Source of the DNA: Herpetosiphon giganteus | Lineage (GTDB): Bacteria; Chloroflexota; Chloroflexia; Chloroflexales; Herpetosiphonaceae | Assembly (NCBI RefSeq): GCF_016907925.1 | Contig: NZ_JAFBCZ010000003.1 | Coordinates: forward strand, 186,001-250,000 | DNA: 64,000 nucleotides | Direction of reading: 5' to 3' | Part shown: one piece after another, positions 14,165 to 28,330 of the stretch | Layout: each line of letters begins with the position of its first letter | Position numbering within the stretch: the first letter of the stretch is position 1 | Program-made: the position numbers and the translations under genes | Notes under the pieces: model-generated | The model's input: only the letters and a program-made list of their open reading frames with translations | Databases searched by the model: none | What the model was told of the DNA's origin: nothing

Positions 14165-15232
14165 TCAATCACTTTCATGGATTAAACTTTCATTACTGTA
14201 TATTGATCGTATCAATTTTCTTTGGCCATTATCGTTAATCATACTAAATAAACCTTGATATGAATATGGAAGATCTAGAACCATTTTTGTATGGATTATA
14301 GAAGTATTTGGTATATCCTTCGTAGTATATCTATAGATAATAGGATGTATTTCCTTTGGAATCGGTCCAAGAATATGAGTATCAAGTAGTGTATACCACT
14401 GATGATAAATTTGATTGGAATAAATACTATCAATAATGACCCGAAATCCAAAATTTGGGGCAAATGTAATAAGCATTTTTATCCATTCGTTGAGAGTATC
14501 TTCTCCTATACAGAGACTGAGTAAGGGAATATCTGTGAGGTAAATAACGATAAGAGGTAAATCATCTTCTGGATAGTCTTTCCATGAAATAATATTCAAC
14601 TGTTCAAATAACTTTATACGATTAAGAATTTCCTGATAAATTAATCCAATAGATTTCTCAAAATCTGTAATAGTCGAAGCATAATAATAAGTGTAAGAAC
14701 TATTCTTTAGTTGCATAAAATCAAGGTTTTTTAAATCGATAATAATAAATTGAATTTCTTTAGAAGATCTATTGAGTATTAACGATAAAATTCCTGTATT
14801 AACTACAGTGGTTTTCCCATATCGCTTAGGCCCAAAGATACCAATACTATGGGTTGTTAATAGATTAGCACAAGCTAAATGGAAGGATAGTCTGTCATCA
14901 TCTACTTCATCTATATACCATCCTAATGGAAAAGGATATGAAGTTAGGGTATCTGATGGAAGTACATCTAATGCCATATCAAATGATGGAGAGGTAAGAG
15001 GAATTTTTTGAGGCTGAAAAGATGTTGTTTGTACAATAGTTGGTAAACTATCAGTATCTCCTTGAGTTGATCTATCACTATCATACCAAGCGTCAGTCAT
15101 TCGCTGAGGTATATCACGAAGAACCTTCCAGACATGGTGCGTTCTATCTGGATACCTCCAAAGGTACATTAACCCAATGAGTGTCCATATGATAACGAGA
15201 TCTCCAATATAGCTCCATATAAATTCCAGCAT
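14165..15232 (-). CDS. Membrane-anchored FtsK/HerA-like P-loop ATPase
   Basis: A 355-residue protein with an N-terminal hydrophobic helix (about residues 5-26), a 70-residue polar linker, and a P-loop ATPase domain. Walker A is GPKRYGKT (134-141), and a Walker B-like strand is PLIVIYLTD near residue 230. The 'IQFIIIDLKNLDFMQL' stretch matches the FtsK/SpoIIIE-type 'iDpKgvel' region. It is much shorter than cellular FtsK, lacks a gamma domain, and is strongly AT-biased. It is probably a membrane-tethered DNA pump or a cargo defence component. It stands alone on the minus strand between tniQ and an Xre gene. Family assignment is moderate; role unknown. Confidence 0.6.
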   Translation of the reverse strand: MLEFIWSYIGDLVIIWTLIGLMYLWRYPDRTHHVWKVLRDIPQRMTDAWYDSDRSTQGDTDSLPTIVQTTSFQPQKIPLTSPSFDMALDVLPSDTLTSYPFPLGWYIDEVDDDRLSFHLACANLLTTHSIGIFGPKRYGKTTVVNTGILSLILNRSSKEIQFIIIDLKNLDFMQLKNSSYTYYYASTITDFEKSIGLIYQEILNRIKLFEQLNIISWKDYPEDDLPLIVIYLTDIPLLSLCIGEDTLNEWIKMLITFAPNFGFRVIIDSIYSNQIYHQWYTLLDTHILGPIPKEIHPIIYRYTTKDIPNTSIIHTKMVLDLPYSYQGLFSMINDNGQRKLIRSIYSNESLIHESD

Positions 15233-15378: not shown

Positions 15379-15618
15379 ATGTTGTTCATGATAAACGGTG
15401 TAGAACTACGAAAACAATTTGGCCGCCGTATCCGATATTTACGACGTCTTAATGATCTTACACAAAACCAACTTGCAGAAAGAACGAACTACTCAACGGA
15501 ATATATTAGTCGGATTGAACGAGGAATTGGAAATCCTTCTTTTGACACGATCGCAGCTTTAGCTACAGCGCTTGACGTTGAAGCAAGTACACTATTTATG
15601 TTTCCTCCCAATGTTTAG
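15379..15618 (+). CDS. Small Xre-family HTH regulator
   Basis: A 79-residue protein that is almost entirely a Cro/C1-type helix-turn-helix: RIRYLRRLNDLTQNQLAERT, then YSTEYISRIERG, then FDTIAALATALDV. Small repressors like this are common in mobile elements and restriction or defence cargo. It is divergent from the FtsK-like gene across 146 bp and convergent with the Ssp-like operon, from which a strong terminator separates it. The start could be the first ATG (15379) or the ATG at 15388; no clear ribosome site decides. It may regulate the FtsK-like gene or the defence operon; this is inferred. Confidence 0.75.
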   Translation: MLFMINGVELRKQFGRRIRYLRRLNDLTQNQLAERTNYSTEYISRIERGIGNPSFDTIAALATALDVEASTLFMFPPNV

Positions 15619-15772: not shown

Positions 15773-15824
15773 AAAAAAATAAATATGCGCGTATCAACTT
15801 CTATACGCGCATATTTATTTTTTA
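15773..15824. terminator. Bidirectional terminator at end of Ssp-like operon
   Basis: Arms of 21-22 bases (15773-15794 and 15803-15824) pair almost perfectly around the loop CAACTTCT, flanked by A7 and T6 runs. It serves the converging Xre gene and the five-gene minus-strand operon. Confidence 0.85.
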
Positions 15825-15873: not shown

Positions 15874-16407
15874 TTAAATATTCAACTTAATTTGAGATGA
15901 TTCATCTGGCCGATTAGACTTTTTTTTGGCTTTTTGCGTTGTTGGTGAACTAGAAATAGGATTATAAAGTTTAATAAAATCCATTACTACATTTTCAGCT
16001 GTATTCTGAATATGGGCTAGAGTTGTTGCACTACTAGGCATAACGTTTGATATAATTCTCATCGCTGGTATGGTCTTTCCTCTAGCTCTATACAAACGGC
16101 TTTGAACAAGGTATTCCACCCCCTCTCGATGAGTTCTATCTATACCTATGAAACGAGCATCATTTGGTAAAGAGTAGGCAAAGACATTTAGATCACCAAC
16201 AGAATTTAAGTCTATTCCAGCATCAAACAATCTAGTTCTTAGGGTTCCATAAGTACTAATATGCGCAGCAAATCGACCAATAACGCCGTGACGATCATTA
16301 GTTTGACCTATATATAATGCTTTATGGGTATTAGAATAAATTATATATATATAGGCGCGTCCAATACCCATAAAGCAGTCGTTAAGCCTCAGTAGAATTG
16401 AACTCAT
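15874..16407 (-). CDS. GIY-YIG nuclease-domain protein
   Basis: A 177-residue protein with a GIY-YIG endonuclease fold. Evidence is the 'YIYII' strand near residue 19, 'LYIGQTND' as the YIG element, then 'GRFAAHI' supplying the catalytic Arg, and a candidate Glu in 'EGVEYLVQ'. The C-terminus is basic and Ser-rich (KAKKKSNRPDESS). It is the last gene of the operon, 13 bp after the GHKL ATPase. An AAGGAA precedes the ATG with an 8-9 base gap. In this setting a nuclease would be the DNA-cutting arm of the defence system. The fold call is good; which DNA it cuts is unknown. Confidence 0.75.
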   Translation of the reverse strand: MSSILLRLNDCFMGIGRAYIYIIYSNTHKALYIGQTNDRHGVIGRFAAHISTYGTLRTRLFDAGIDLNSVGDLNVFAYSLPNDARFIGIDRTHREGVEYLVQSRLYRARGKTIPAMRIISNVMPSSATTLAHIQNTAENVVMDFIKLYNPISSSPTTQKAKKKSNRPDESSQIKLNI

Positions 16408-16420
16408 TGATTACATTTCC

Positions 16421-18163
16421 TTAATCGCTTGGGAGAGACTCTCCTAACTCTCTGCACATATTTGCAAGAAATTCGGTAGTTACTCGTCGAAAATGCTCCA
16501 AGACATTTTCGACTTCTGCTATGTCATAACGTGAATTTTTTTGTACAAACTTCTCAGATCCAGCCAACTGTAAAAGAAATAGATTTATTACTGTTATTAG
16601 GGCAGTATTATTTTTATTATTCTCATAAACAAGCCGAGTAAATCGGTGTAATCTGTTGATTCGCACACAAGAACCCTTGGTTGCATCATAGTATGGTTCC
16701 CATAATACATTATCCGTAGTGAAGTTCACTAAGAAAATACGATCCCCCTCTTCAGCTTCTGGCCCTGCTATAACTGCTTTGACTTGTTCCTGAAGTATAT
16801 GCTCTATAGCTTCATCATTCTGCAAACTAGGCTGATCTATTTCTTCGCTTTGAGCAACCATTTCGAGAACTTTTCTCTTTTGAGTCTCGAGGATTTCTAG
16901 CTCTCTGCGCTCTGCTTCAGCATAATCAGACTCCGTTTCAGATACACCTGGCAATTCTTCTGGCATATCGACTTGTTGGGCTAGCGCATTAGAATGGACT
17001 AACGTATTCTGTCCTGCACGACGATTTATTACGGCTTTAGCATGATTCCAAGCTTGTTTACTTTTTCGCTTATATTCATAAGATAGATCATCAAGCATCT
17101 TTTGTGCTTCATCTGATAAGTGAATCTGTGATTTTTTGACATCAATATTAAATGCTTCATCGGCAGAATCATCAATAAGTATTCTTCCACGGAAAGAATA
17201 AAAATCTTGATCCCTTGGAATTATACCGAATGTTTCAGCCCACGAAAGAAGCCTTTCATTTCTATAAACATAGAAGCCATAATTTCCAGCCCCAATATTA
17301 TATTTATCTCTGATTTTTTTAGCACTTCCAGGAGTATCAACATCAAATGATGGAGGATGAGGAAGTTGTGTTACCTCAATTATGGCATCAACATCACTAT
17401 AAGTATCTATCTTCATCGTATCAGGATGCTGTATCCAGCATGTAGATAAACCATCCCATTCATGTTCGTCTAGATTACCATGTTGATCTGCTTCGTTCGT
17501 AAATAGCACATCAAATGGTTGGCATTCTACATTATTTACTTCAATCTTAAGATTTTGTTTGCTCATCATATAAAAATAGATTGCACCAATTTTCATACGT
17601 AACTCTTCAAGTGTTGACTTAATACTTGGATGATTATTCTTACGAATTTGTGTGATTCTAATGATAGATCCACTTACTCCGGAAAGATATTTATTAATAA
17701 GAATATGGTCTTCATCAGTTAATACTGCTTCTTCTGCACCATACGTATCTCTACGTTGAATCTCGGGAAGAGAAACTACAAATTTAGAGAAATTATACCC
17801 ATCTTTTGATGAAATAAGTTCAAGTACTTCACCTTGAGAAAAAGAAGCTGATTTAAGACCTAATCCAAACTTAGATAAACTTTTAGGTTCATATTCGTCC
17901 GATGGAGAGCCGAGAGTAAGAGCTTTCAGAATTCCGTCTTCATCCATTCCTTCCCCATCGTCAATAATTAGATATTCTTTTACATTATTCTGACGTGTAT
18001 CAGGAGCATCTTTTTCACGTTCAATTCTAATATAAATGTTCTTAGCCTTAGCACTTACAGCGTTATCAACAATATCGCAGATAGCGCTAGAGGGAGTATA
18101 ACCAATTCGACTTAGCCCATTAACAACACGTGCGGCATCCATCGGGATTGAAATAAAGCTCAT
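16421..18163 (-). CDS. GHKL (HSP90/MORC-like) ATPase in defence operon
   Basis: A 580-residue protein with an N-terminal GHKL ATP-binding domain. The N box is AICDIVDNAVSA, the G1 box IIDDGEGMDE, and the G2 box SKFGLGLKSAS; all ATP and Mg ligands appear present. An S5-like transducer domain probably follows. The middle (about 380-470) is charged and probably coiled-coil, rich in Glu, Arg and Lys. The organisation is like MORC and other DNA-clamping GHKL proteins rather than true chaperones. It is placed between a PAPS-reductase-family gene and the GIY-YIG nuclease in one operon. It may sense or clamp DNA and license the nuclease. Domain call is firm; the function is inferred. Confidence 0.85.
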   Translation of the reverse strand: MSFISIPMDAARVVNGLSRIGYTPSSAICDIVDNAVSAKAKNIYIRIEREKDAPDTRQNNVKEYLIIDDGEGMDEDGILKALTLGSPSDEYEPKSLSKFGLGLKSASFSQGEVLELISSKDGYNFSKFVVSLPEIQRRDTYGAEEAVLTDEDHILINKYLSGVSGSIIRITQIRKNNHPSIKSTLEELRMKIGAIYFYMMSKQNLKIEVNNVECQPFDVLFTNEADQHGNLDEHEWDGLSTCWIQHPDTMKIDTYSDVDAIIEVTQLPHPPSFDVDTPGSAKKIRDKYNIGAGNYGFYVYRNERLLSWAETFGIIPRDQDFYSFRGRILIDDSADEAFNIDVKKSQIHLSDEAQKMLDDLSYEYKRKSKQAWNHAKAVINRRAGQNTLVHSNALAQQVDMPEELPGVSETESDYAEAERRELEILETQKRKVLEMVAQSEEIDQPSLQNDEAIEHILQEQVKAVIAGPEAEEGDRIFLVNFTTDNVLWEPYYDATKGSCVRINRLHRFTRLVYENNKNNTALITVINLFLLQLAGSEKFVQKNSRYDIAEVENVLEHFRRVTTEFLANMCRELGESLPSD

Positions 18164-18195
18164 AGCGAATCCCTCTTAGTATATAAATGATCCAA

Positions 18196-19029
18196 TTAAT
18201 GAAGAGCACAAATGTTACAACCTGGATCATCATCTTCTTCATCAAAAACAACTTTATTGAGCTCATATAGAGTAATACCTGGCCGTCGTCGACGTTCCTC
18301 TTCCAAACGTTTTATGTGATCAGCGCGAACTTGTGCTAATCTTTCAGGTTGCTCTAACTCGACTAAACTTTCTCGTTGTCGCCATGTAAAGCGTTCACCC
18401 CCATTCTCAGTCTCATATTTTTTAGATTCTTCATAGAGATCTGGATGTCTATCTTTAAGTCCAACCCATTCGCCAGTTCGCTGAAAGAAACAGAAATAGC
18501 ATCCACTACGTTGTCTCCATTCATAATAAGTGGGCATTCCTAGCCCACTCTCAGCGAGTATACGCTCAACATCTCGAAGACCCAATCCATGATCTTTAAA
18601 GGGATATAAAGCTTGAATATTAGATTTAGTAGAGATATAACCACTCCGATTCTCATCACCACGAATACCAATATAGCTCCAAACTTTATCATTACCAACA
18701 TAGGCTTCGAACGGCTCGATCTTAAGTTTACGCGTACACCAACGAACTTGGCCCGATGGGAGCATACCGTTGTACATAGTCAACCAGTGATCAAATCCTC
18801 TATCTGGATTCAACCGAATGATTGGGCGCTGAAGGTATGCTTCTAGCCGATCTAAGTATTCATATGTTTCTTTCAGTTCTTTATGAGTATCACAAAAAAC
18901 ATACTCAAGTTGGGGAATATGGTCACGCAGATAGATGGCTAGAGCAGTACTATCCTTACCTCCGCTTAGACTAACAATATGTCTACCAGGAAGTTCTGAC
19001 CACTGACTAAATGTTGTTGGCATTACCAT
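18196..19029 (-). CDS. PAPS-reductase-family protein (SspD/DndC-like)
   Basis: A 277-residue ATP-pyrophosphatase-type protein. The PP-loop LSGGKDST (residues 21-28) binds ATP. Cysteines in WCTRK, GCYFC and the C-terminal CNIC tail resemble the DndC/SspD pattern, in which iron-sulfur or persulfide chemistry moves sulfur onto the DNA backbone. A true assimilatory PAPS reductase lacks these extra cysteines. It is the third gene of an operon whose first gene encodes DUF4007, a combination found in Ssp phosphorothioation systems. No cysteine desulfurase (SspA/DndA) is present here, so a chromosomal IscS would have to supply sulfur. Family assignment is firm; the phosphorothioation role is probable. 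Confidence 0.82.
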   Translation of the reverse strand: MVMPTTFSQWSELPGRHIVSLSGGKDSTALAIYLRDHIPQLEYVFCDTHKELKETYEYLDRLEAYLQRPIIRLNPDRGFDHWLTMYNGMLPSGQVRWCTRKLKIEPFEAYVGNDKVWSYIGIRGDENRSGYISTKSNIQALYPFKDHGLGLRDVERILAESGLGMPTYYEWRQRSGCYFCFFQRTGEWVGLKDRHPDLYEESKKYETENGGERFTWRQRESLVELEQPERLAQVRADHIKRLEEERRRRPGITLYELNKVVFDEEDDDPGCNICALH

Positions 19030-19034
19030 AATAT

Positions 19035-22000
19035 CTATTCCTTTATGTGATCAAGGAGTGGATTAAGAAGCATTGATAACACTCTTACTTGTTGTGCGGG
19101 CACTAGCATCGGATAGTTATTAAGAACATCCATAATGCGTTGATGAACTTCATCAATAAGATCATCTTCTGCACTAGTATGGATGACCATACTTCGTTCT
19201 CCTTGATAATTTGTTAACCCAATGCGTAAAACTGTTGATGCCGATTCTTGGGGAGCTATTGCGACTGCAAGATGTTCTGCATCTTGAAAGCGACGACCAA
19301 GATCCATAATTTGAGCAGTAAAAGAATTTATATCGTTATCATTCCATGAGGTAGTAGGCTTGCGTATTAAGAGTGCGCCAATGCTTTCAACCCATCCTGC
19401 ATCGTTACTGCCATTTTCGACACGAACACCAAAGGCACGTAACTGTATGTCTGATGTGACTCCAGAAATAAAACGATATCGTTCGGCAAGTTCCTCACGA
19501 AGTAGCATAAAGCTTTCTTGTTGAGTCTTAAAAGCTTTACGAATATCATTTACTAGATTCTGAACCAAGTTCGGATATGCGTCTTGAATCTCTACTAGAT
19601 ATTCTCTTAATGAGGTTATAAAGGTATCAACATGTTTTGGATCTTCATTACCAGCAATAAATGGTGGAAGATTACAAGCTTGTGGCAACAGATAAAACAG
19701 GAGTTGATCGGGCGTTTGTGCTGCCAATATTGCTTTCCTAACAGCTTTTGCTTGATCGCTAATTGTGTGAGTATTTTGACTAAACTCAGGAAGTTTAGCT
19801 ATGAATCGCATTAACGGAGTTGCCGCATCATTAATCAGAGGAATAGACCCATTTAGAGCCTTTTTCGGTGCCAATGCATGTATAATGCGTTCATAAATTG
19901 TGAGCCGACTTCCTCGAATTCGGCTGAGTCTCAATGAAAAATGTCCCGGCTGCCTTAGTAAGCGCTCAAAAACCGCGATACTGGGTACCTGTACATAGTT
20001 GCCATTTTCATACAGAACCATCTCACCAGCATTGGAAAGATATGCAGCAATAAACAATAAGGGAATTAAGCCAGCTTTCACACCATATGGAGGTTTCTCC
20101 AGTAGTGCATAAAGTGTTTCTAGGTCAATTGGTGCATCAGCAGTTCGATCAAAAAATCTATGAATAGCATCCCAAACTGGACGAAGATTAGTCGAATTAG
20201 TAGCATTAGGCTCAGCAATAATCCATTGACCATTTTCATCCTGACGATGTAGACCACTGTTGAGAAATACACTTTCATATATAGCACGCTCAGGTGGATA
20301 TCCAATTAGACCAACGCGCTCAATATGGCCATAATCAAGCATAGCTTCTACAAGATTTCGCCGTGCTTTTGCACCCATGGCAGTAAGTTGACGCCGATTG
20401 ATCAACTCATTCCAAATCCGTGGAGTCAATGAAAATACTTCATCACAAATATTTGATAAGAGTGCATCTACATCACGCATATTATTAATAGGCTGAATAG
20501 ACCCTTGCCAATACCAATGACTTGATCCAGGTCCGTATGCTTGAACTAATACATCGGCAAGTGCTTGCTGAGCATCTGATAAACGACTCGCTAATTCTCG
20601 TCGTGCCACACGATCATTTTCCAGTAGTGGTTCAGAGGCAAGTACGTGGCCAACAGCACTAACTTCTAGCAATAGTTCACGAAGTGATTGAACATGATTT
20701 GAGATAACTAAAATACGTTGTGCATCAGCTTGGCGATTCGGATGACGTAACAGTTCCATTACGCGTTCAAGTGCCTCTATATCAGAGGGTAAAATATAGA
20801 ATATCTCACCATCCCCGATAACCGGCATCGCTAGATAACGTGGAAGTTCATCATCTGTGACAAACCGAACCGAAAAATGACGAACAGCACCAGTTTCGTA
20901 ACTATGGCGTCGAGCAATGAAAGGAGTGGTTGATGCGTGCTCTTGAAGCAAATCAGTTGATGATACCTGATCCCCTAATGCATTAAGCTCATGTTGAATT
21001 ATTGTATCTAAATCCAGATCACTTCCTTCAAAAAGAGCATAACTATCGCGATGATGACGATAAGTAATGTGTTGTCGTGACTGAAGCTGTAATAATGCAC
21101 GGAGTACATCGGGATGATCGATATTGTCTTGAAGCGCAAAAGATAGATGATTAGAACTTGCTCTTAATGTCTGATTCTGTCCCAAGGCATTTAGAGTTCC
21201 AATAGTAACAAGCACATCATCAACCATACTATCAAAATGCTCGATGCGTTGGCGGGCTTCAGCAAGTTCAGACCATCGACGACCACGGGTTTGGTGAAAG
21301 AGACTTAGCCCCAACGATGACTCAATATAAGCATATAAATGTGTCATACGATAAATTGGTAATGTACCCGAAATCGCTGTAGTTATTCGAAGAACATCCT
21401 GAAGACTCCACGGCTCAGGTGTACTGAGAAACGCAAATAATGACCGTTCATTTTGAGCTAACTGACGAAATATAGCAGGCAAAGCTACTAGAACCATGGG
21501 ATGAATGGGATAAGCCTGAGCAACTAGCTCAGCCCAATCATAAGTCGAGATATCTTTTGGTCGTAAATTAAGCTGTTCAGTTAAAGGTAAAACTTGTCTC
21601 ACCCAGTCGGATCGGGCCTCAGCAAATTTATCATCTCCGTGTATTGACAAAGCATGGGCCACCATACGGATCAGTTGGCTTGCTGGCTCATTAAAAGGAA
21701 TATCAATAAACCTTCCTTGAACCTTAGCCCATTCAGCACGCTGGTGCGCACCAGCACTACCTGCATAACGCTCAAATGATTGATGTAGGATAGTAACAAA
21801 GAGACAAGGAATATCACCACTGCGAGCAGACATTTCGGCAACAGTTTGAAGCACGAAAAGATCGCGTTCTCCACGGCCTTGAGCTGCATAATCAAGATGT
21901 TGTCCTAATTCATCAACAATTATTAATAACCCATCCCAAGAGCTATATTGCTTTACAGCATTACCAACCGTTTCAATAAGAGAGGCAACACTCTCCGGAT

Positions 22001-22484
22001 CAATATCAGGATCAGCAAATGCACGGGTAAGGCTTGCCACTATATTTTTGATCGGCACACGTTGACGTGAAATGGTAGAAAGGGCATCATGTAGTGATCG
22101 AAGGAGTGCTAAACGTAAGGAACTGTTATTACCACTCACAATCACCGGCAAGAGTTGTGGTACTTCATATAGGGAGCTATCAATGGTCCCGGGAACCATA
22201 CTAGTGGGTAATAATTGCTCACGCTTGGATGGCGTACTCTGTAAGTACGAGGCAAGAAATAATCCAAAGGCCGATTTCCCAGATCCATATGGACCAATTA
22301 TAGAGAATGCCCTTCCTTTGGCATTGGGGGCCAAACTTGCTACAACACGCTCTAGAGTTGCAACTACTAAAGGTGTAACTTGATAACCTTCTAATGATGT
22401 ATCAAGGTCTATGAAATCACGCTGAATATGAACTGATCGCGTGTAACGGCCAGCAATAGGAAGAGACAAAGTAGTATTAGACAT
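19035..22484 (-). CDS. Large P-loop ATPase (SspC-like; BrxC/PglY-like alternative)
   Basis: A 1,149-residue ATPase. Walker A is GPYGSGKSA (residues 64-72), and Walker B is LLIIVDELGQHLD near residue 190. The remaining 900 residues are helical with no motif that I can name. The start at ATG 22484 overlaps the DUF4007 stop by 8 bp and gives the natural N-terminus MSNTTLSL. In SspBCD sets the ATPase couples sulfur insertion to DNA nicking; large BrxC/PglY ATPases of BREX have a similar layout. BREX hallmark genes such as PglZ are absent, so I favour the Ssp reading. It lies between DUF4007 and the PAPS-reductase-family gene. Confidence 0.75.
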   Translation of the reverse strand: MSNTTLSLPIAGRYTRSVHIQRDFIDLDTSLEGYQVTPLVVATLERVVASLAPNAKGRAFSIIGPYGSGKSAFGLFLASYLQSTPSKREQLLPTSMVPGTIDSSLYEVPQLLPVIVSGNNSSLRLALLRSLHDALSTISRQRVPIKNIVASLTRAFADPDIDPESVASLIETVGNAVKQYSSWDGLLIIVDELGQHLDYAAQGRGERDLFVLQTVAEMSARSGDIPCLFVTILHQSFERYAGSAGAHQRAEWAKVQGRFIDIPFNEPASQLIRMVAHALSIHGDDKFAEARSDWVRQVLPLTEQLNLRPKDISTYDWAELVAQAYPIHPMVLVALPAIFRQLAQNERSLFAFLSTPEPWSLQDVLRITTAISGTLPIYRMTHLYAYIESSLGLSLFHQTRGRRWSELAEARQRIEHFDSMVDDVLVTIGTLNALGQNQTLRASSNHLSFALQDNIDHPDVLRALLQLQSRQHITYRHHRDSYALFEGSDLDLDTIIQHELNALGDQVSSTDLLQEHASTTPFIARRHSYETGAVRHFSVRFVTDDELPRYLAMPVIGDGEIFYILPSDIEALERVMELLRHPNRQADAQRILVISNHVQSLRELLLEVSAVGHVLASEPLLENDRVARRELASRLSDAQQALADVLVQAYGPGSSHWYWQGSIQPINNMRDVDALLSNICDEVFSLTPRIWNELINRRQLTAMGAKARRNLVEAMLDYGHIERVGLIGYPPERAIYESVFLNSGLHRQDENGQWIIAEPNATNSTNLRPVWDAIHRFFDRTADAPIDLETLYALLEKPPYGVKAGLIPLLFIAAYLSNAGEMVLYENGNYVQVPSIAVFERLLRQPGHFSLRLSRIRGSRLTIYERIIHALAPKKALNGSIPLINDAATPLMRFIAKLPEFSQNTHTISDQAKAVRKAILAAQTPDQLLFYLLPQACNLPPFIAGNEDPKHVDTFITSLREYLVEIQDAYPNLVQNLVNDIRKAFKTQQESFMLLREELAERYRFISGVTSDIQLRAFGVRVENGSNDAGWVESIGALLIRKPTTSWNDNDINSFTAQIMDLGRRFQDAEHLAVAIAPQESASTVLRIGLTNYQGERSMVIHTSAEDDLIDEVHQRIMDVLNNYPMLVPAQQVRVLSMLLNPLLDHIKE

Positions 22485-23430
22485 CACGCACCTCGCGTTC
22501 AAACATTCGCTGAAGAAGAGCCATGGCAGTATCATCTCCCATAGCGCCAGTCCAAGCAACCTGCCGAATGCCAGCCTGATCGGTATAGTAAGCATCTCCG
22601 CCAGTAATTGATGTAAGCTTATGAAGACGACTCAGTAATGAATCCTCATCTAGGCGAAATACGCGACCTGGTGACCTTGGAGCATAGGCTAGATCACTGA
22701 AAGCAATTGTACGGCGTTGTTGTCTTACCATCATCGAATGAATAGCATAAGCAACTAAGTCATCAGGCAAAGTTGGATGTGCTCCCGATAGAGTGTGGTA
22801 GATACGCTCTCCCGGTAGTGTATCAAGCAACCCTAATTCGCTTAATGGGCAGAGCAGGCTATCTTCCGCACCAGCGGCAATTTGTTTAATAGTTGGTCGT
22901 GCATAACAACGAATCATACAATCTATATCACGTTCAAGGGTTGAATCCGAGGGTATACGCCAACCCTGATCGCTGGTAAATGATTGTAATTGTGCTGTAA
23001 GATTCGCTATTGTGAATTCACCCCCACGAAGTAGATTGAAGACATAGAACCAGGTGAATGCTGCCTCAGGATTCGAGGCAACATTCCAATGTAATAGCCA
23101 CCAACTCGCTGGGGATACAAAGTATGGATCCCATCCATCAAGACTATTCAGCCAACAATGGCCAAGGTTCGTTGCACCATAATGGTCACCTTGTGCGGAT
23201 CGCTGAAACACTCCACATACACGACCCCAGAAACGAATCGACTGAACCATGTTCTTGCCTACACCCAAGCGTACAATGGCATCATCACGAGCAAAGAGGT
23301 CAGGGTAGACAAGAAGCACGTCATATGCCTTCTTCAACCACGTGCTTCTTAAAGCAAATGTCTCATGCCCACTGAATGTTGGAGTAAAATCGCCAGGGAA
23401 TAAACCAACCGGCATAGTAGCGATCGTCAC
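22477..23430 (-). CDS. DUF4007 protein (SspB-like)
   Basis: A 317-residue DUF4007 protein. The family hallmark 'FSGHETFALRSTWLKKAYD' is near the N-terminus, followed by 'LGVGKNMVQSIRFW' and 'HYGATNLG', also typical. SspB proteins of this family are reported to nick DNA during single-strand phosphorothioation. I choose the GTG at 23430, five bases after AAGGA. The first gene of a five-gene operon on the same strand as gyrB, it begins about 350 bp inside the transposon end. Readthrough from gyrB could therefore reach it. The DUF4007 call is strong; the SspB equivalence relies on my knowledge of the family and the linked PAPS-reductase gene. Confidence 0.83.
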   Translation of the reverse strand: MTIATMPVGLFPGDFTPTFSGHETFALRSTWLKKAYDVLLVYPDLFARDDAIVRLGVGKNMVQSIRFWGRVCGVFQRSAQGDHYGATNLGHCWLNSLDGWDPYFVSPASWWLLHWNVASNPEAAFTWFYVFNLLRGGEFTIANLTAQLQSFTSDQGWRIPSDSTLERDIDCMIRCYARPTIKQIAAGAEDSLLCPLSELGLLDTLPGERIYHTLSGAHPTLPDDLVAYAIHSMMVRQQRRTIAFSDLAYAPRSPGRVFRLDEDSLLSRLHKLTSITGGDAYYTDQAGIRQVAWTGAMGDDTAMALLQRMFEREVRDV

Positions 23431-23688
23431 ACAAATCCTTCCTAAGATTGCGAAAATGTATAGTAGTTGTTCCAAATCCCTAGCAAATTATGCTTTTACT
23501 ATATGAGAACAGGTAAATTATTGAGCTAAGAAATATTGTTATGGTTATAAAAATGATATTTACATATCATTCAGTTCTATATTGAAGATTTTATAATAAG
23601 AACAGGGACTTTGCTTTTGATATTATGCATTGTCCCTGTTCATTACTACTTCATCCCAATAATCCTTATGAATTAACCTATTAGATGT
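23431..23688. promoter_or_regulatory. Upstream region of Ssp-like operon with inverted repeat
   Basis: AT-rich non-coding stretch between the DUF4007 gene and the transposon end. It holds a perfect 10-base inverted repeat GAACAGGGAC (23600-23609) and GTCCCTGTTC (23632-23641) around a 22-base AT-rich loop. This could be a regulator-binding site or a hairpin that blunts incoming gyrB transcription. No gene seen. Confidence 0.45.
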
Positions 23689-23784
23689 CTATAGGAGCAA
23701 CTGGTATCAATTATAAGGAGCAAACTGTTTGCACTAAATGATCAACCCGTGAGTCCTTAGGATCAAACCGTCTGCACCCTTACA
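23689..23784 (-). repeat. Transposon right end with three TnsB-type repeats
   Basis: The outermost 25 bases mirror the left end. Within 100 bases are three related units: CTATAGGAGCAACTGG (23689-23704), TTATAAGGAGCAAACTGTTT (23711-23730) and CCTTAGGATCAAACCGTC (23755-23772). They share the core TWAGGAKCAAAC. Multiple TnsB sites per end are the Tn7 pattern. Confidence 0.8.
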
Positions 23785-23798
23785 ACTATTTGAATCGC

Positions 23799-26700
23799 CT
23801 AAACATCCAAGTTTTTCACGTCGGCGGCGTGGGTTTGGATAAAGCGTTTGCGCGGCAAGACGATTTCACCCATCAACATTGAGAAGGTTTCATCGGCAGC
23901 CATCGCATCTTCAATTGTCACTTGCAAAATCATGCGATTGCCAGGGTTGAGCGTCGTGTCCCACAATTGGTCGGGATTCATTTCGCCAAGCCCTTTAAAG
24001 CGCTGAACGATGACCTTGGTGCCAGCTGGCAATGAACGAATATATTCATCGCGGGTTGCTTCATCGTAGACATATTTGTAGGCCTTTCCATGTTGCACCC
24101 GGAACAATGGTGGTTGGGCAACATACAAGTGGCCATTGGTAATCAAATCACGCATATGGCGGAAGAAGAAGGTCAGTAGCAAGGTGCGGATGTGACTTCC
24201 ATCCACATCAGCATCAGTATTGTGAGCATACAAACCACCAGTGCCACACAAGAAGTTTTCGTCTTCTTCGACTGAGAAGTCGTAGACAAACTCACCAGTT
24301 GGGTCTAATTCTTCAACCGCTAAGACTTCTAAGCCAACCATATCATCGCTGATTGGCGTAAAGGCTTGGGCTTTGGTCGTTGGTTTCGCCAAATGGGCTT
24401 CGACTTTGGCGGCCAGATGATGGCGTTGCCAAACGCTGCGCAATTGTTCTAGCTGTTGCTTGCCACTAATTGCAATGTTGTAGTAGTCGTGCACAGTTTG
24501 AATTGGTGCATCGGCTGGCAAGTTGGGCTTGATGTTGCTCACGCCAGCAAAAATGCCAAGTTGGCCAAACACATAGAGCAAGCCATCTTTGAGTTCTGGC
24601 GAGTTGGTTGTCATGCTAATGGTGCTATCGCTGAGCGTGCCATCACCAAGGAAGTAGCCTTCAAGATAGCTACGCTGTAAATCGCTGCTCAAGCTGAAGA
24701 GCATATTAGGCACTTGCTTTTGATGGGCAACCGCACCCAAGCCCAAAGCACGAATCAAACGAGCTGCCAAAACGCTATGGAAGTAGCATTTGATGCCGCC
24801 ATTATCGGGCGATTGGTAGAAACGTGGCGTTTCACCAAAAAGCTGTTCAATCGTGGTTTTTAGTTCAGCGAAGAAGGCTGCATCTTTTTGACCTAACGAT
24901 AAACTAACTTGATGTTTGCTCAATGAACCTTCGGCAGTAAACCAGCCCAAGAACCACAGCAATTCAGGCGTGATCGCCAACATGCGTGGGAAGGCGCGAT
25001 CGTCGTGGGCTTGCGGCACAAGCTCGACATCACGATCAAGCAAATCTAGCTCATCGTTGTTGAAGCTATTAAAAGCTTTGTAGTTACTGACTTCACGCCA
25101 GCGTGCGTTGCCACTACTATCATCTTGTAACAACAAACGCTCGATCTTTGAAGGCACCAGCTCATAGCTAATTGGTTCTTCCCAGCCAATCGTTGCCAAG
25201 TAGTTATCGAATTGCGATTGAATAGGCCGTAGCATGCCACGTTCCCATTGGCTAATCGTAATTGCTTGCTTCACTCCAAGCCGTTGGGCAACCATTTTTT
25301 GGCTTAAGCCATGGGCTTGGCGATATTCAACCAAACGTTCCCAAGCAGCAGTATGCAAGCTGATTCGGGCTTCGTTCCATTGCTCAGGCTGCGAAACATT
25401 GTTCAGCACTCGCTGAGCAGCAATCGCGCGCACACTTTCACCCCGCAGATAAAGATTATCAATCAAGCCTGCTTCAGCAAACAACTTGATCAGGTCGATT
25501 TCGCGAGGTTGGATTGCTGGTCGTGGAATCCGGCGACTGGCAACCAATTGATCGCCAAGTTTGATTTGATCGCCTTTTTTCAAGAATGGCTGGCCATTCT
25601 CAAGCACAAACACACTATGCGAGGCGGTTACTTTGACCGAACGGCCATAGCGCGTGCTAAGTTTGTACATCGGCTCGTGGTTGGCGTGGCGCATCACTGC
25701 TTTGAGTGGGCGGAAGCGCGCAAGATTGCGTTTTTGGTCGAAGCTAATTACTTCGTACTCGCTTGCCTGGCGTTGGCCTGCAATACATTGATCGATAAAT
25801 TCGCCAATGCGCACAAACTCAGTATGGCCTTGACCATTGCGAATCAGGGTTGGTTCATCGCCAGCAACGCTCATAATCAAAATGCGATGGTAGCGCAAAC
25901 GCGATAAATCAAATGTTTCGCCAATACCAGTGCCAAGTGCAGTAATTAATGCACGAACTTCGTTATTGGCAAGCATTTTATCCAAACGCGATTTTTCGAC
26001 GTTCAGAATTTTACCGCGCAAAGGCAAAATTGCTTGGAACCGACGATCACGGCCTTGCTTCGCGCTTCCACCTGCACTATCGCCTTCGACGATGAAGATT
26101 TCGCAGTGAGCTGGCTCTTTATCCGAGCAGTCAGCGAGCTTGCCAGGCAAGGCAAAGCCTTCGAGTGCACCTTTGCGTTGCACCAAATCGCGAGCTTTGC
26201 GGGCTGCATCACGCGCCCGTGAGGCCAAGAGCGATTTTTCGATGATGCGGCGGGCTTCGTTGGGATTTTCATCCAAAAAGCCCGAAAGCGCTTCATTCAG
26301 CACCGTTTCGACTGCGGTTTTGGCTTCTGGCGTGGCCAATTTCGATTTAGTTTGGCTTTCGAATTGTGGGCGGAACAGTTTGATGCTAATAATTGCGGTC
26401 AAACCTTCGCGCACATCTTCGCCAGAGAGCGTATCGCCTTCTTTGAGCAAGCCTTTGCTGCGACCATAGGCATTGATCGTGCGGGTTAGGGCTGCGCGAT
26501 AGCCAGTAACGTGCGTGCCACCATCAGGATTGGCAATGTTATTAGTAAAGGCTAAAAGATTTTCGTTGAAATCGCCAGTGTATTGCATGGCAATTTCAAC
26601 ATTAACATTTTCATGAGCTTTTTCAACATAGAATGGTTGCGCGAGCAATGGGCCTTTTTCGCGGGTCAGATGACGCACGAACGAGACAATCCCACCATCG

Positions 26701-27365
26701 AAATAGTAGGTTACTTCGCGATCGTTGTTGTAATCAACCAGTTTGAAGCGCAGGCTCTTGTTGAGATAGGCCATATCGCGCAAACGGTTCGACAGCGTGC
26801 GATAGTTGAATTCAACGGTGGTAAATAATTGGGCATCTGGTTTGAAGATAATCGTCGTGCCCGTGCCTTCGGCATCGCCAACCTGATGCACAGGAGCTTG
26901 GGGCATGCCGAGGCGAAAATCTTGCGCCCACAATTTACCATCGCGTTTAACTTCGGCGCGCAAGAATTCGGAAACCGCGTTAACTGCCGAAACCCCGACC
27001 CCGTGCAAACCACCTGAGACTTTATAGCCTTGCGAGCCCTTGAATTTACCGCCAGCGTGTAGCTCGGTCAGCACAATTTCGAGCGCTGAACGACCTTCGA
27101 CGGGGTGAATATCGGTAGGAATCCCGCGCCCATTATCGACGACAGCAATTGAACCGTCAGTGCGCATTTCGACGATAATCGTATCGCAGTAGCCAGCCAA
27201 AGCCTCGTCCACCGAGTTATCGACAACTTCATAGACCAAGTGATGCAAGGCCGATGTGTCTTGGCCACCGAGATACATCCCCATGTTTTCGCGTACTGCT
27301 TCCAAGCCGCGCAACATTTGAATCTGAGCGGCATCGTATGTACTCTGATTAGGATTTGTCGCCAT
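23799..27365 (-). CDS. gyrB: DNA gyrase subunit B containing an intein
   Basis: 1,188 residues as encoded; removing the 551-residue intein leaves a normal 637-residue GyrB. This is the ATPase subunit that, with GyrA, introduces negative supercoils. Host signatures are the GHKL ATP site ([35 protein letters not shown]), the TOPRIM [26 protein letters not shown]-type region, and the split TOPRIM [9 protein letters not shown]. The C-terminus 'RRKFI-type' reads [18 protein letters not shown]. The ATG at 27365 is chosen because GAGG lies nine bases upstream; an in-frame GTG at 27380 overlaps the preceding gene. The intein interrupts exactly before TDADVDG, the metal-binding loop. Its 3' end lies 14 bp from the Tn7-like transposon. 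Confidence 0.96.
   Translation of the reverse strand: [1188 protein letters not shown]
24219..25871 (-). other. Intein in GyrB with LAGLIDADG endonuclease and Xre-like HTH
   Basis: A protein insertion running from Ser (25871-25869) to the terminal His-Asn (codon ending 24219), followed by extein Thr. Splicing block A is [11 protein letters not shown], block B is VTASHSVFV, and the end is LYAHN followed by T. Two LAGLIDADG motifs are visible ([12 protein letters not shown] and [12 protein letters not shown]), so the homing endonuclease looks intact. Between block B and the endonuclease is an unusual Xre-type helix-turn-helix, [20 protein letters not shown] onward (25206-25343). Block A begins with Ser rather than Cys, so splicing would start by an N-O shift. 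Boundaries are set by the uninterrupted GyrB family sequence. Confidence 0.92.
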
Positions 27366-27376
27366 CGAATCGAACC

Positions 27377-28330
27377 TCACTTTTGTGTTAGGGCAACAGG
27401 AAAACGGTGGGCAAGTGAGCCAACACGTTCGTTATAAAAGACTAATTTGGCTGCTTGTAAACTACAGCTGAGCAACCCAAACAGGGCGCTTGCTGCAAGA
27501 ATGCTGATTATGTTGGTGGCTAGGGGCCGCAGCAAAAAGGCCGTCCCATGAATCAAAACCCCGCTAGCGAGAATCAGCGACAGGGCTTCGCGTGGTTGTT
27601 GACGCACCAAGTTGTAGCTCTGATAGAGCGCAATCAAGGCTGATTGTTGGCCAAGCATAATTGCTGCTGGCGCAAGGCTGGCATAGACCCAGAGGGCAAT
27701 GAGCACCATGCCAAAGGCGGCGAGCACCAATTGCGCCCCAAACGCGCTGGCAGAGAGCAAAAAGCTTGCTGTAAAAAACGCAGGGATGCCAAATAACAAG
27801 CCTAAGCCAACGATAATCAGGCTTAGTTTGGCTAAGTTCCAGAGCTGTTTTGGCAGGGCAGACCATCCAGGCTGCGCCTGATCGAGATTGCGTCCCAGCC
27901 AGAACAAAACGATTGCGCTGAAACCAAGCCCCAGCACATTCAACCCAAGCACCAAGAGCAAGGTCAACCAGCCATCGAACAGCCATGGCGCGCCGCTATG
28001 CAGCGAGGGCGAGCCAGCACCGCTAAACAAACTTGGCACAAGGTAAGTTCCAACGGCACTCGAACGCAAATCGACGGTTTGCAATAGCTCGTTGGCCTGC
28101 GCCCAAAGTTGTTGGCCTTGCGCACGGCTAAATCGGTTGACCACGCTGCTAATGCTGGCAAGCCAACGATTAGGCGCTAAAGCTGGCATTAACCTCAGCC
28201 AGATGTCAAGCAAAATGGGCATTAAAATAACCCAAGGTGCGCGACGAACGATGCGAAATCCTTGGCTTAGACGTTCCGGAAGATTACGCCGTTGTGGCTC
28301 TTGGGCTTGTGGTTGTAAACGTCTATTCAT
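27377..28330 (-). CDS. Multi-pass membrane protein upstream of gyrB
   Basis: A 317-residue integral membrane protein with about six hydrophobic segments (for example WVILMPILLDIWL, LTLLLVLGLNVLGLGFSAIVLFW, LSLIIVGLGLLFGIP). The basic N-terminus (MNRRLQPQAQEPQRRN) suggests an inside start. The ATG at 28330 is chosen because TATAAT lies six bases upstream, so the transcript could be leaderless; longer in-frame starts run into that promoter. The stop lies 11 bp before the gyrB ATG, so the two genes are probably co-transcribed. I recognise no family or active site; function unknown. Confidence 0.75.
   Translation of the reverse strand: MNRRLQPQAQEPQRRNLPERLSQGFRIVRRAPWVILMPILLDIWLRLMPALAPNRWLASISSVVNRFSRAQGQQLWAQANELLQTVDLRSSAVGTYLVPSLFSGAGSPSLHSGAPWLFDGWLTLLLVLGLNVLGLGFSAIVLFWLGRNLDQAQPGWSALPKQLWNLAKLSLIIVGLGLLFGIPAFFTASFLLSASAFGAQLVLAAFGMVLIALWVYASLAPAAIMLGQQSALIALYQSYNLVRQQPREALSLILASGVLIHGTAFLLRPLATNIISILAASALFGLLSCSLQAAKLVFYNERVGSLAHRFPVALTQK

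Follow-up and report, generated by a model that had tools for sequence, protein, structure and literature searches.

A GHKL ATPase and a GIY-YIG protein as a probable restriction partner of DNA phosphorothioation genes in Herpetosiphon giganteus and other bacteria

A five-gene operon in Herpetosiphon giganteus

The window analyzed here, a 64,000-nucleotide stretch of the Herpetosiphon giganteus genome (contig NZ_JAFBCZ010000003.1, positions 186,001 to 250,000), contained five close-set genes on the minus strand, running from 23430 to 15874. The first three encoded homologues of the phosphorothioate (PT) modification proteins SspB (DUF4007), SspC and SspD, and these were followed by genes for a MORC-like GHKL ATPase and a putative GIY-YIG nuclease. 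The original prediction, made from the sequence alone, had placed these five tightly spaced genes there, and Pfam matches, PADLOC matches and the gene spacing agreed with it in both place and strand (Table 1). The sspB and sspC genes overlapped by 8 bases, and the subsequent gaps were 5, 32 and 13 bases. The last two genes, referred to below as the GHKL-GIY pair, were found to be linked to PT genes in at least four bacterial phyla. We suggest that PT systems probably have in them a phage-restriction partner of a new kind.

With PADLOC matches to all three proteins and spacings of -8 and 5 bases, sspBCD was recognized as a single SspB-SspC-SspD operon. The most likely start of SspB was the GTG at 23430, and an in-frame TTG was present at 23475. 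SspC most likely starts at the ATG at 22484, in the overlap with the sspB stop; the enclosing longer open reading frame begins at 22595. Walker A (GPYGSGKS) and Walker B (LIIVDE) motifs were readable in SspC, and the SGGKDS motif was present in SspD.

Ssp PT is single-stranded (5'-CCA), and Dnd PT is double-stranded (GAAC/GTTC). Candidate cysteine desulfurases were encoded in trans in the H. giganteus genome, one NifS/IscS-like (L172, SSGSACTSG motif) and others SufS-like. From the homology of the modification genes, the window operon very probably replaces an oxygen by sulfur in the backbone of the bacterium's own DNA. PT in 5'-CCA is made by SspBCD with IscS (PMC8092258, PMC11662687).

Table 1. 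Positions of the operon genes and flanking elements in the window
Feature	Position	Strand	Evidence
sspB-like (DUF4007; PT-modification DNA-binding component)	22477..23430	-	GTG start; PF13182 E=4.6e-77; PADLOC SspB E=9.8e-88
sspC-like (BrxC/Orc-type AAA+ ATPase)	19035..22484	-	PADLOC SspC, 1070 bits
sspD-like (3'-phosphoadenosine 5'-phosphosulfate (PAPS)-reductase/PP-loop sulfurtransferase)	18196..19029	-	PADLOC SspD E=1.5e-112; PF01507 E=1.8e-11
paraMORC GHKL+S5 ATPase, putative effector ATPase	16421..18163	-	PF13589 (HATPase_c_3) E=3.3e-24
GIY-YIG nuclease, putative effector nuclease	15874..16407	-	PF01541 E=2.4e-4; alignment; predicted fold
Intrinsic-terminator-like hairpin, 20 pairs, operon end	15775..15822	-	consensus match only
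gyrB-sspB gap, presumed operon promoter region	23431..23798	-	inferred from gene order

The GHKL ATPase and the GIY-YIG protein

The GHKL ATPase, 580 amino acids (aa) long, was composed of GHKL and S5 domains, a coiled coil and a C-terminal domain. Ten residues (D30, N34, D68, G70, G72, K98, G100, G102, L103 and K104) were invariant in the alignment, as were the N-box, DxGxG and FGLGLK motifs. The general-base position of the N-box was occupied by Asp instead of the usual Glu, as in related paraMORCs. The AlphaFold model (mean predicted local distance difference test score, pLDDT, 79.4) matched MORC3/4/2 at Z of about 21, ahead of Hsp90, topoisomerase VI-B and MutL, and MORC2/3/4 were also matched by sequence profiles. 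By its motifs, its S5 domain and its predicted MORC-like fold, the protein classified as a paraMORC GHKL ATPase.

PADLOC 2.0 gave the GHKL protein only weak, distant MzaB matches. Membership of the MZA system, which these had suggested, was rejected, since the gene was not partnered by a methyltransferase, Vsr, Z1 or AIPR.

The GIY-YIG protein is 177 aa long. Its Pfam score of 21.8 bits, versus a family cut-off of 22.6, was marginal alone. Among 14 aligned sequences, Y21, Y32, G34, R45, H49 and E98 were invariant, residues that we take to correspond to the catalytic positions of I-TevI/Eco29kI-type sites. The AlphaFold model had a mean pLDDT of 82.7. Plain Foldseek gave no significant match to this model, and the GIY-YIG fold emerged only with VIA-align. 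There the best match was I-TevI (Z 6.3, 87 residues, 2.8 A), a middling score, but unrelated structures drop to about 2, and the first 12 matches were all GIY-YIG enzymes (I-TevI, PD-T4-3, UvrC and Slx1). A profile search of solved structures returned no sequence relative, and PADLOC 2.0 held no matching model. The alignment of 14 sequences together with the predicted fold secured the protein as a member of the GIY-YIG nuclease family.

The active-site residues of both proteins were intact in sequence, and from them a nuclease activity would be expected of the smaller one. The G+C content of the two genes (15874-18163) was 36%; sspBCD had 43% and the window as a whole 47%. Such an A+T-rich pair is consistent with a separate origin.

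Linkage of the GHKL-GIY pair to PT genes

To obtain loci by the GHKL protein irrespective of its neighbors, one genome per species (84,980 species) was scanned with a general paraMORC alignment, headed by the window protein, as the query. The neighboring genes were not a selection criterion. The scan returned 80 loci, of which the top 17 (L060-L076) formed a distinct clade.

PT genes were linked in 15 of these 17 loci, 13 with Ssp and 2 with Dnd. They lay within the same locus in 14 cases and on the same contig in the fifteenth (L071, extended as L149). The same GIY-YIG gene followed the GHKL gene in 14/14 loci in which the latter was complete. In the two unlinked loci (L068 and L070), the GHKL gene was incomplete or broken-looking, there was no GIY gene, and no DUF4007 or DndC was found in the assemblies.

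The next 63 paraMORC loci served as a contrast set. None contained PT genes (0/63) or such GIY genes (0/63); instead, a 5-methylcytosine (m5C) methyltransferase was present in 59/63 and a Vsr gene in 35/63. Conversely, no methyltransferase, Vsr, Z1 or AIPR match occurred in the 17-locus clade (0/17). The pair was therefore not one that lies mostly without DUF4007 or PAPS-reductase neighbors, the outcome that would have counted against the original prediction. At the level of sequence, its linkage to PT genes was specific and recurrent. The 17 loci include closely related flavobacterial copies (L063, L064, L065, L073 and L075), so the number of independent events is smaller than 17.

The proposal of a previously undescribed restriction module that depends on or senses DNA modification is supported by these counts. 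The pairing with Ssp, as predicted, was seen in 13 loci, and it had to be refined to include Dnd in the other two.

Arrangements of the linked loci

The full order SspB-SspC-SspD-GHKL-GIY was found in L060, L062-L065, L073, L075 and L076. The GIY gene of L076 encoded a longer, divergent protein that could still be aligned with the other GIY sequences. L074 showed SspC-SspD-GHKL-GIY at a contig edge, and in L067, with SspB nearby, the contig end fell inside the GHKL gene. In Flavobacteriaceae, a cysteine desulfurase gene was convergent on the operon, with the conjugative-transposon genes TraG and TraM nearby.

Other loci combined the pair with further PT-linked genes. The Paenibacillus locus (L061/L150) had the order SspB-SspC-SspD-DUF6997-SspFGH-GHKL-GIY. 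In Clostridium (L066), the order was DndFGH-GHKL-GIY, and DndB-DndC-DndD with a likely DndE lay elsewhere in the genome (L154). In L072, DndD-DndE-GHKL-GIY was found with DndC on another contig. In Streptosporangium (L069/L148), the pair adjoined SspE, and SspBCD was on the same contig. In L071/L149, SspB, SspC, a PAPS-reductase-like protein and a cysteine desulfurase were upstream in one gene run.

Since the pair co-occurs with SspFGH in Paenibacillus, DndFGH in Clostridium or SspE in Streptosporangium, it is an exchangeable effector module and not simply a replacement for SspE. The description 'in place of SspE' in the original prediction thus holds for the window, with no SspE in its 64 kb, and does not cover these other loci.

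The clostridial runs (L149:682-17628 and L178:9646-19501) were composites of Ssp- and Pbe-like parts. They encoded SspB, SspC, a PAPS reductase, a cysteine desulfurase, a phospholipase D (PLD)/superfamily 2 (SF2) helicase, a DndD/PbeC-like ABC ATPase, the products of two unknown genes, an HNH nuclease, GHKL and GIY. In one flavobacterial locus (L064:1832-4330), an 832 aa protein with a GHKL-like N-box (LIEKVTNAIDA) and no Pfam match was encoded 5' of the operon.

Phylogeny and distribution

In the tree, the PT-linked GHKL set was on one branch with support of 100/100. The named members bearing PT genes belonged to Bacteroidota, Bacillota, Actinomycetota and Pseudomonadota. The two Dnd-linked members were at separate places among the Ssp-linked ones. 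Modification partners have thus been exchanged.

Whole-genome searches with a GIY profile, in samples that each included the centre genome, gave matches in 6/397 Flavobacteriaceae, 1/399 genomes in the class of the Paenibacillus genome and 2/391 in the class of the Eubacterium genome. Every match adjoined a PT-type GHKL gene. The flavobacterial matches were within the full five-gene operon, and a new clostridial match (L178) showed the L149-type arrangement plus a cysteine-desulfurase-like fragment. Counted from the GIY side, co-occurrence across genomes thus gave the same picture, with only PT-type pairs. Among 400 genomes of the window's phylum, the window alone was matched in a single-sequence search.

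Single-protein scans of viral contigs found no relatives of either protein. By tblastn against plasmids, the GIY query gave no match, and the GHKL query gave distant paraMORCs only, several in methyltransferase/Vsr or MZA contexts.

In the same order or genus as H. giganteus, other genes followed SspBCD. SspFGH did so in L024 (by PADLOC), with the same layout in L030 and L032-L034. In L035 and L058, the core was succeeded by SspE and then by another type of paraMORC and a small protein; here Ssp seems to have taken up a paraMORC a second time, independently. In L023 (14937-18222), the genes after SspBCD encoded another GIY-YIG protein, of 164 aa and unrelated in appearance, and a 412 aa DndB-like protein (PF14072); these may form a further module linked to PT. 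With several effectors on the same SspBCD core, the window arrangement is one of several.

The paraMORC after SspE in L035 (10427-15068) and L058 (1268-6835) carried Glu in its N-box. The small protein beside it (164-175 aa) began with 'APYKALLLL', which by eye resembled the N-terminal part of sulfur-binding/HNH proteins.

Surroundings of the window operon

Within the 64 kb window, to which the search was confined, no homologues of SspE, SspF, SspG, SspH or Dnd proteins were found. The BREX type 4 markers PglZ and BrxL were absent among the 10 proteins around the operon. A promoter scan of the gyrB-sspB gap gave no excess over shuffles. The adjoining gyrB (23799-27380, minus strand) contained an intein with a LAGLIDADG domain.

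An XRE-type helix-turn-helix protein of 79 aa was encoded at 15379-15618 (plus strand), convergent with the operon, and an XRE gene was immediately 5' of sspB in the flavobacterial copies. From these two positions, the XRE protein is a possible regulator. A 355 aa FtsK/EssC-like protein, hydrophobic at its N-terminus, was encoded 3' of the operon at 14165-15232 (minus strand). As a sixth member of the operon (compare SspH) it was rejected: more than 600 bases and the terminator-like hairpin lay between, and it matched none of the SspH queries employed.

Comparison with known systems

The window operon resembles the SspABCD-SspE and SspABCD-SspFGH systems in having SspB, SspC and SspD in the same order with an effector following in the operon. 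It differs in that the effector role would fall to two separate proteins, a GHKL ATPase and a GIY-YIG nuclease; a DUF262/DUF1524 protein is absent, as are SspF, SspG and SspH. It also has no SspA, whereas the flavobacterial copies have a desulfurase alongside.

DndFGH, DndI and PbeABCD are likewise PT-linked effectors attached to a modification module, and DndI is also an ATPase-nuclease (PMC11662687). The GHKL-GIY pair, in contrast, comes from unrelated protein families and occurs with both Dnd and Ssp.

ParaMORCs are generally found in restriction-modification operons and were proposed to loop DNA between the recognition and cleavage sites of restriction systems (PMC2292703). The MZA/paraMORC modules (MzaB; Iyer 2008, PMC2292703) share with the window operon the same GHKL+S5 superfamily, encoded with a DNA-modification gene directly 5' and nuclease genes 3'. 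Their companions are an m5C methyltransferase, Vsr and Z1, a helicase or HNH, whereas those of this clade are phosphorothioation genes and one small GIY-YIG nuclease gene.

GIY-YIG restriction enzymes of the PD-T4-3 type share the fold and are among the closest solved structures. They are titled 5-hydroxymethylcytosine (5hmC)-specific restriction endonucleases, act on modified cytosine and are not operon partners of PT genes. The closest published statement is in the survey of Rakesh 2024 (PMC10853773), where URI/GIY-YIG nucleases are among those incorporated alongside Dnd modification genes; its main text mentions neither a partner of the GHKL, MORC or MutL type nor a GIY-YIG nuclease paired with Ssp. 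In the main texts of the open-access journal papers searched, the pair was nowhere described in company with Ssp or Dnd. The GHKL-GIY effector is apparently undescribed in PADLOC and the searchable literature.

Proposed mechanism and alternatives

We interpret the GHKL-GIY pair as a restriction effector linked to PT, irrespective of the direction of gating, with a probability of about 0.78; modification, nuclease activity and phage protection are predictions of this interpretation. SspB, SspC and SspD, with a desulfurase acting in trans, would insert sulfur into the backbone of self DNA at a short motif. Like MutL and MORC proteins, the GHKL paraMORC would dimerize on DNA in an ATP-closed state, and this clamp would recruit its GIY-YIG partner, or license it, for nicking or cutting. 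That step would be gated by the PT mark.

Several observations weigh against this interpretation. The operon lacks a gene for a cysteine desulfurase (SspA), and neither the GHKL nor the GIY protein has a recognizable PT-reading domain (DUF262 or sulfur-binding domain). Many of the linked genomes are draft or metagenome assemblies, and the six flavobacterial operons compared were 84-95% identical in DNA.

Given a PT-gated effector, we lean towards PT as a self mark that restrains it, so that unmarked phage DNA would be cut; cutting stimulated by PT, as in SspE, has the lesser, though appreciable, share. Of the known effectors, SspE is PT-dependent, and unmodified DNA is damaged by SspFGH and DndFGH (PMC8092258, PMC11662687). 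A protective mark is favored because the sister clades are accompanied by methyltransferases, and because no intact copy of the pair was found without modification genes.

A stimulated effector, inactive without PT, would be switched on by cellular PT and would then damage incoming DNA. SspE acts so with the same modification genes (PMC8092258, PMC11662687). The pair is also found in operons that carry SspFGH or DndFGH, and it is known that SspE and SspFGH can coexist and that their effects add up (PMC8092258). Against this stand the missing DUF262-type PT reader and the m5C methyltransferases that accompany other paraMORCs, where the mark would be expected to protect. The incomplete GHKL genes and missing GIY genes of the two loci without modification genes fit toxicity in the absence of the mark, as well as uselessness. 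On balance, we consider a stimulated effector unlikely, while ranking it first among the alternatives.

The MutL-like ATPase and UvrC/Slx1-like nuclease might instead serve maintenance, removing or repairing oxidized or mis-inserted PT sites. The GHKL fold is common to MutL and the GIY-YIG fold to UvrC and Slx1, and an association with Ssp and Dnd alike fits a need common to all PT DNA. A maintenance function would hardly be expected of a pair so rare and patchy (1/400 genomes of the window's phylum and 6/397 Flavobacteriaceae), and in related genomes SspBCD occurs without it. The pair moreover travels with restriction modules and also beside conjugative-transposon genes, and its sister clades are restriction-linked. 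We regard maintenance as improbable.

Still less probable is a part in the modification machinery itself, for example nicking for sulfur insertion, which the position of the pair directly 3' of sspD in one operon could suggest. In E. coli, PT requires no more than SspBCD plus IscS (PMC8092258); the pair is also joined to Dnd systems, whose modification machine is a different one, and it is missing from the SspBCD loci of related genomes. Defence genes do cluster in islands, and a chance meeting of SspBCD with an unrelated paraMORC restriction cassette is scarcely credible when these genes are neighbors time and again in several phyla, the same GIY being present wherever the GHKL is complete and a methyltransferase never in the clade.

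For a restriction effector restrained by PT, a more speculative form, which we hold to be doubtful, is a reader of backbone sulfur independent of the motif. A sliding MORC-type clamp might sense the presence or density of PT, whether made by Ssp or Dnd, and release the GIY-YIG nuclease on DNA lacking it. If true, this would explain how self-cutting is avoided in partly modified genomes and how one effector serves two unrelated modification machines.

Significance

In a 2021 survey, 2,211 of 2,678 sspBCD loci contained no SspE and no SspFGH, and further restriction partners were suggested (PMC8092258). The GHKL-GIY pair is a concrete candidate for these missing partners, conserved across several phyla. 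At about 760 codons together, the two genes are small enough for testing in E. coli, and they allow the reading of PT at partly modified sites to be addressed directly. The effector has moved between Ssp and Dnd, and its ATPase family, elsewhere found with cytosine methylation, is here found with backbone sulfur.

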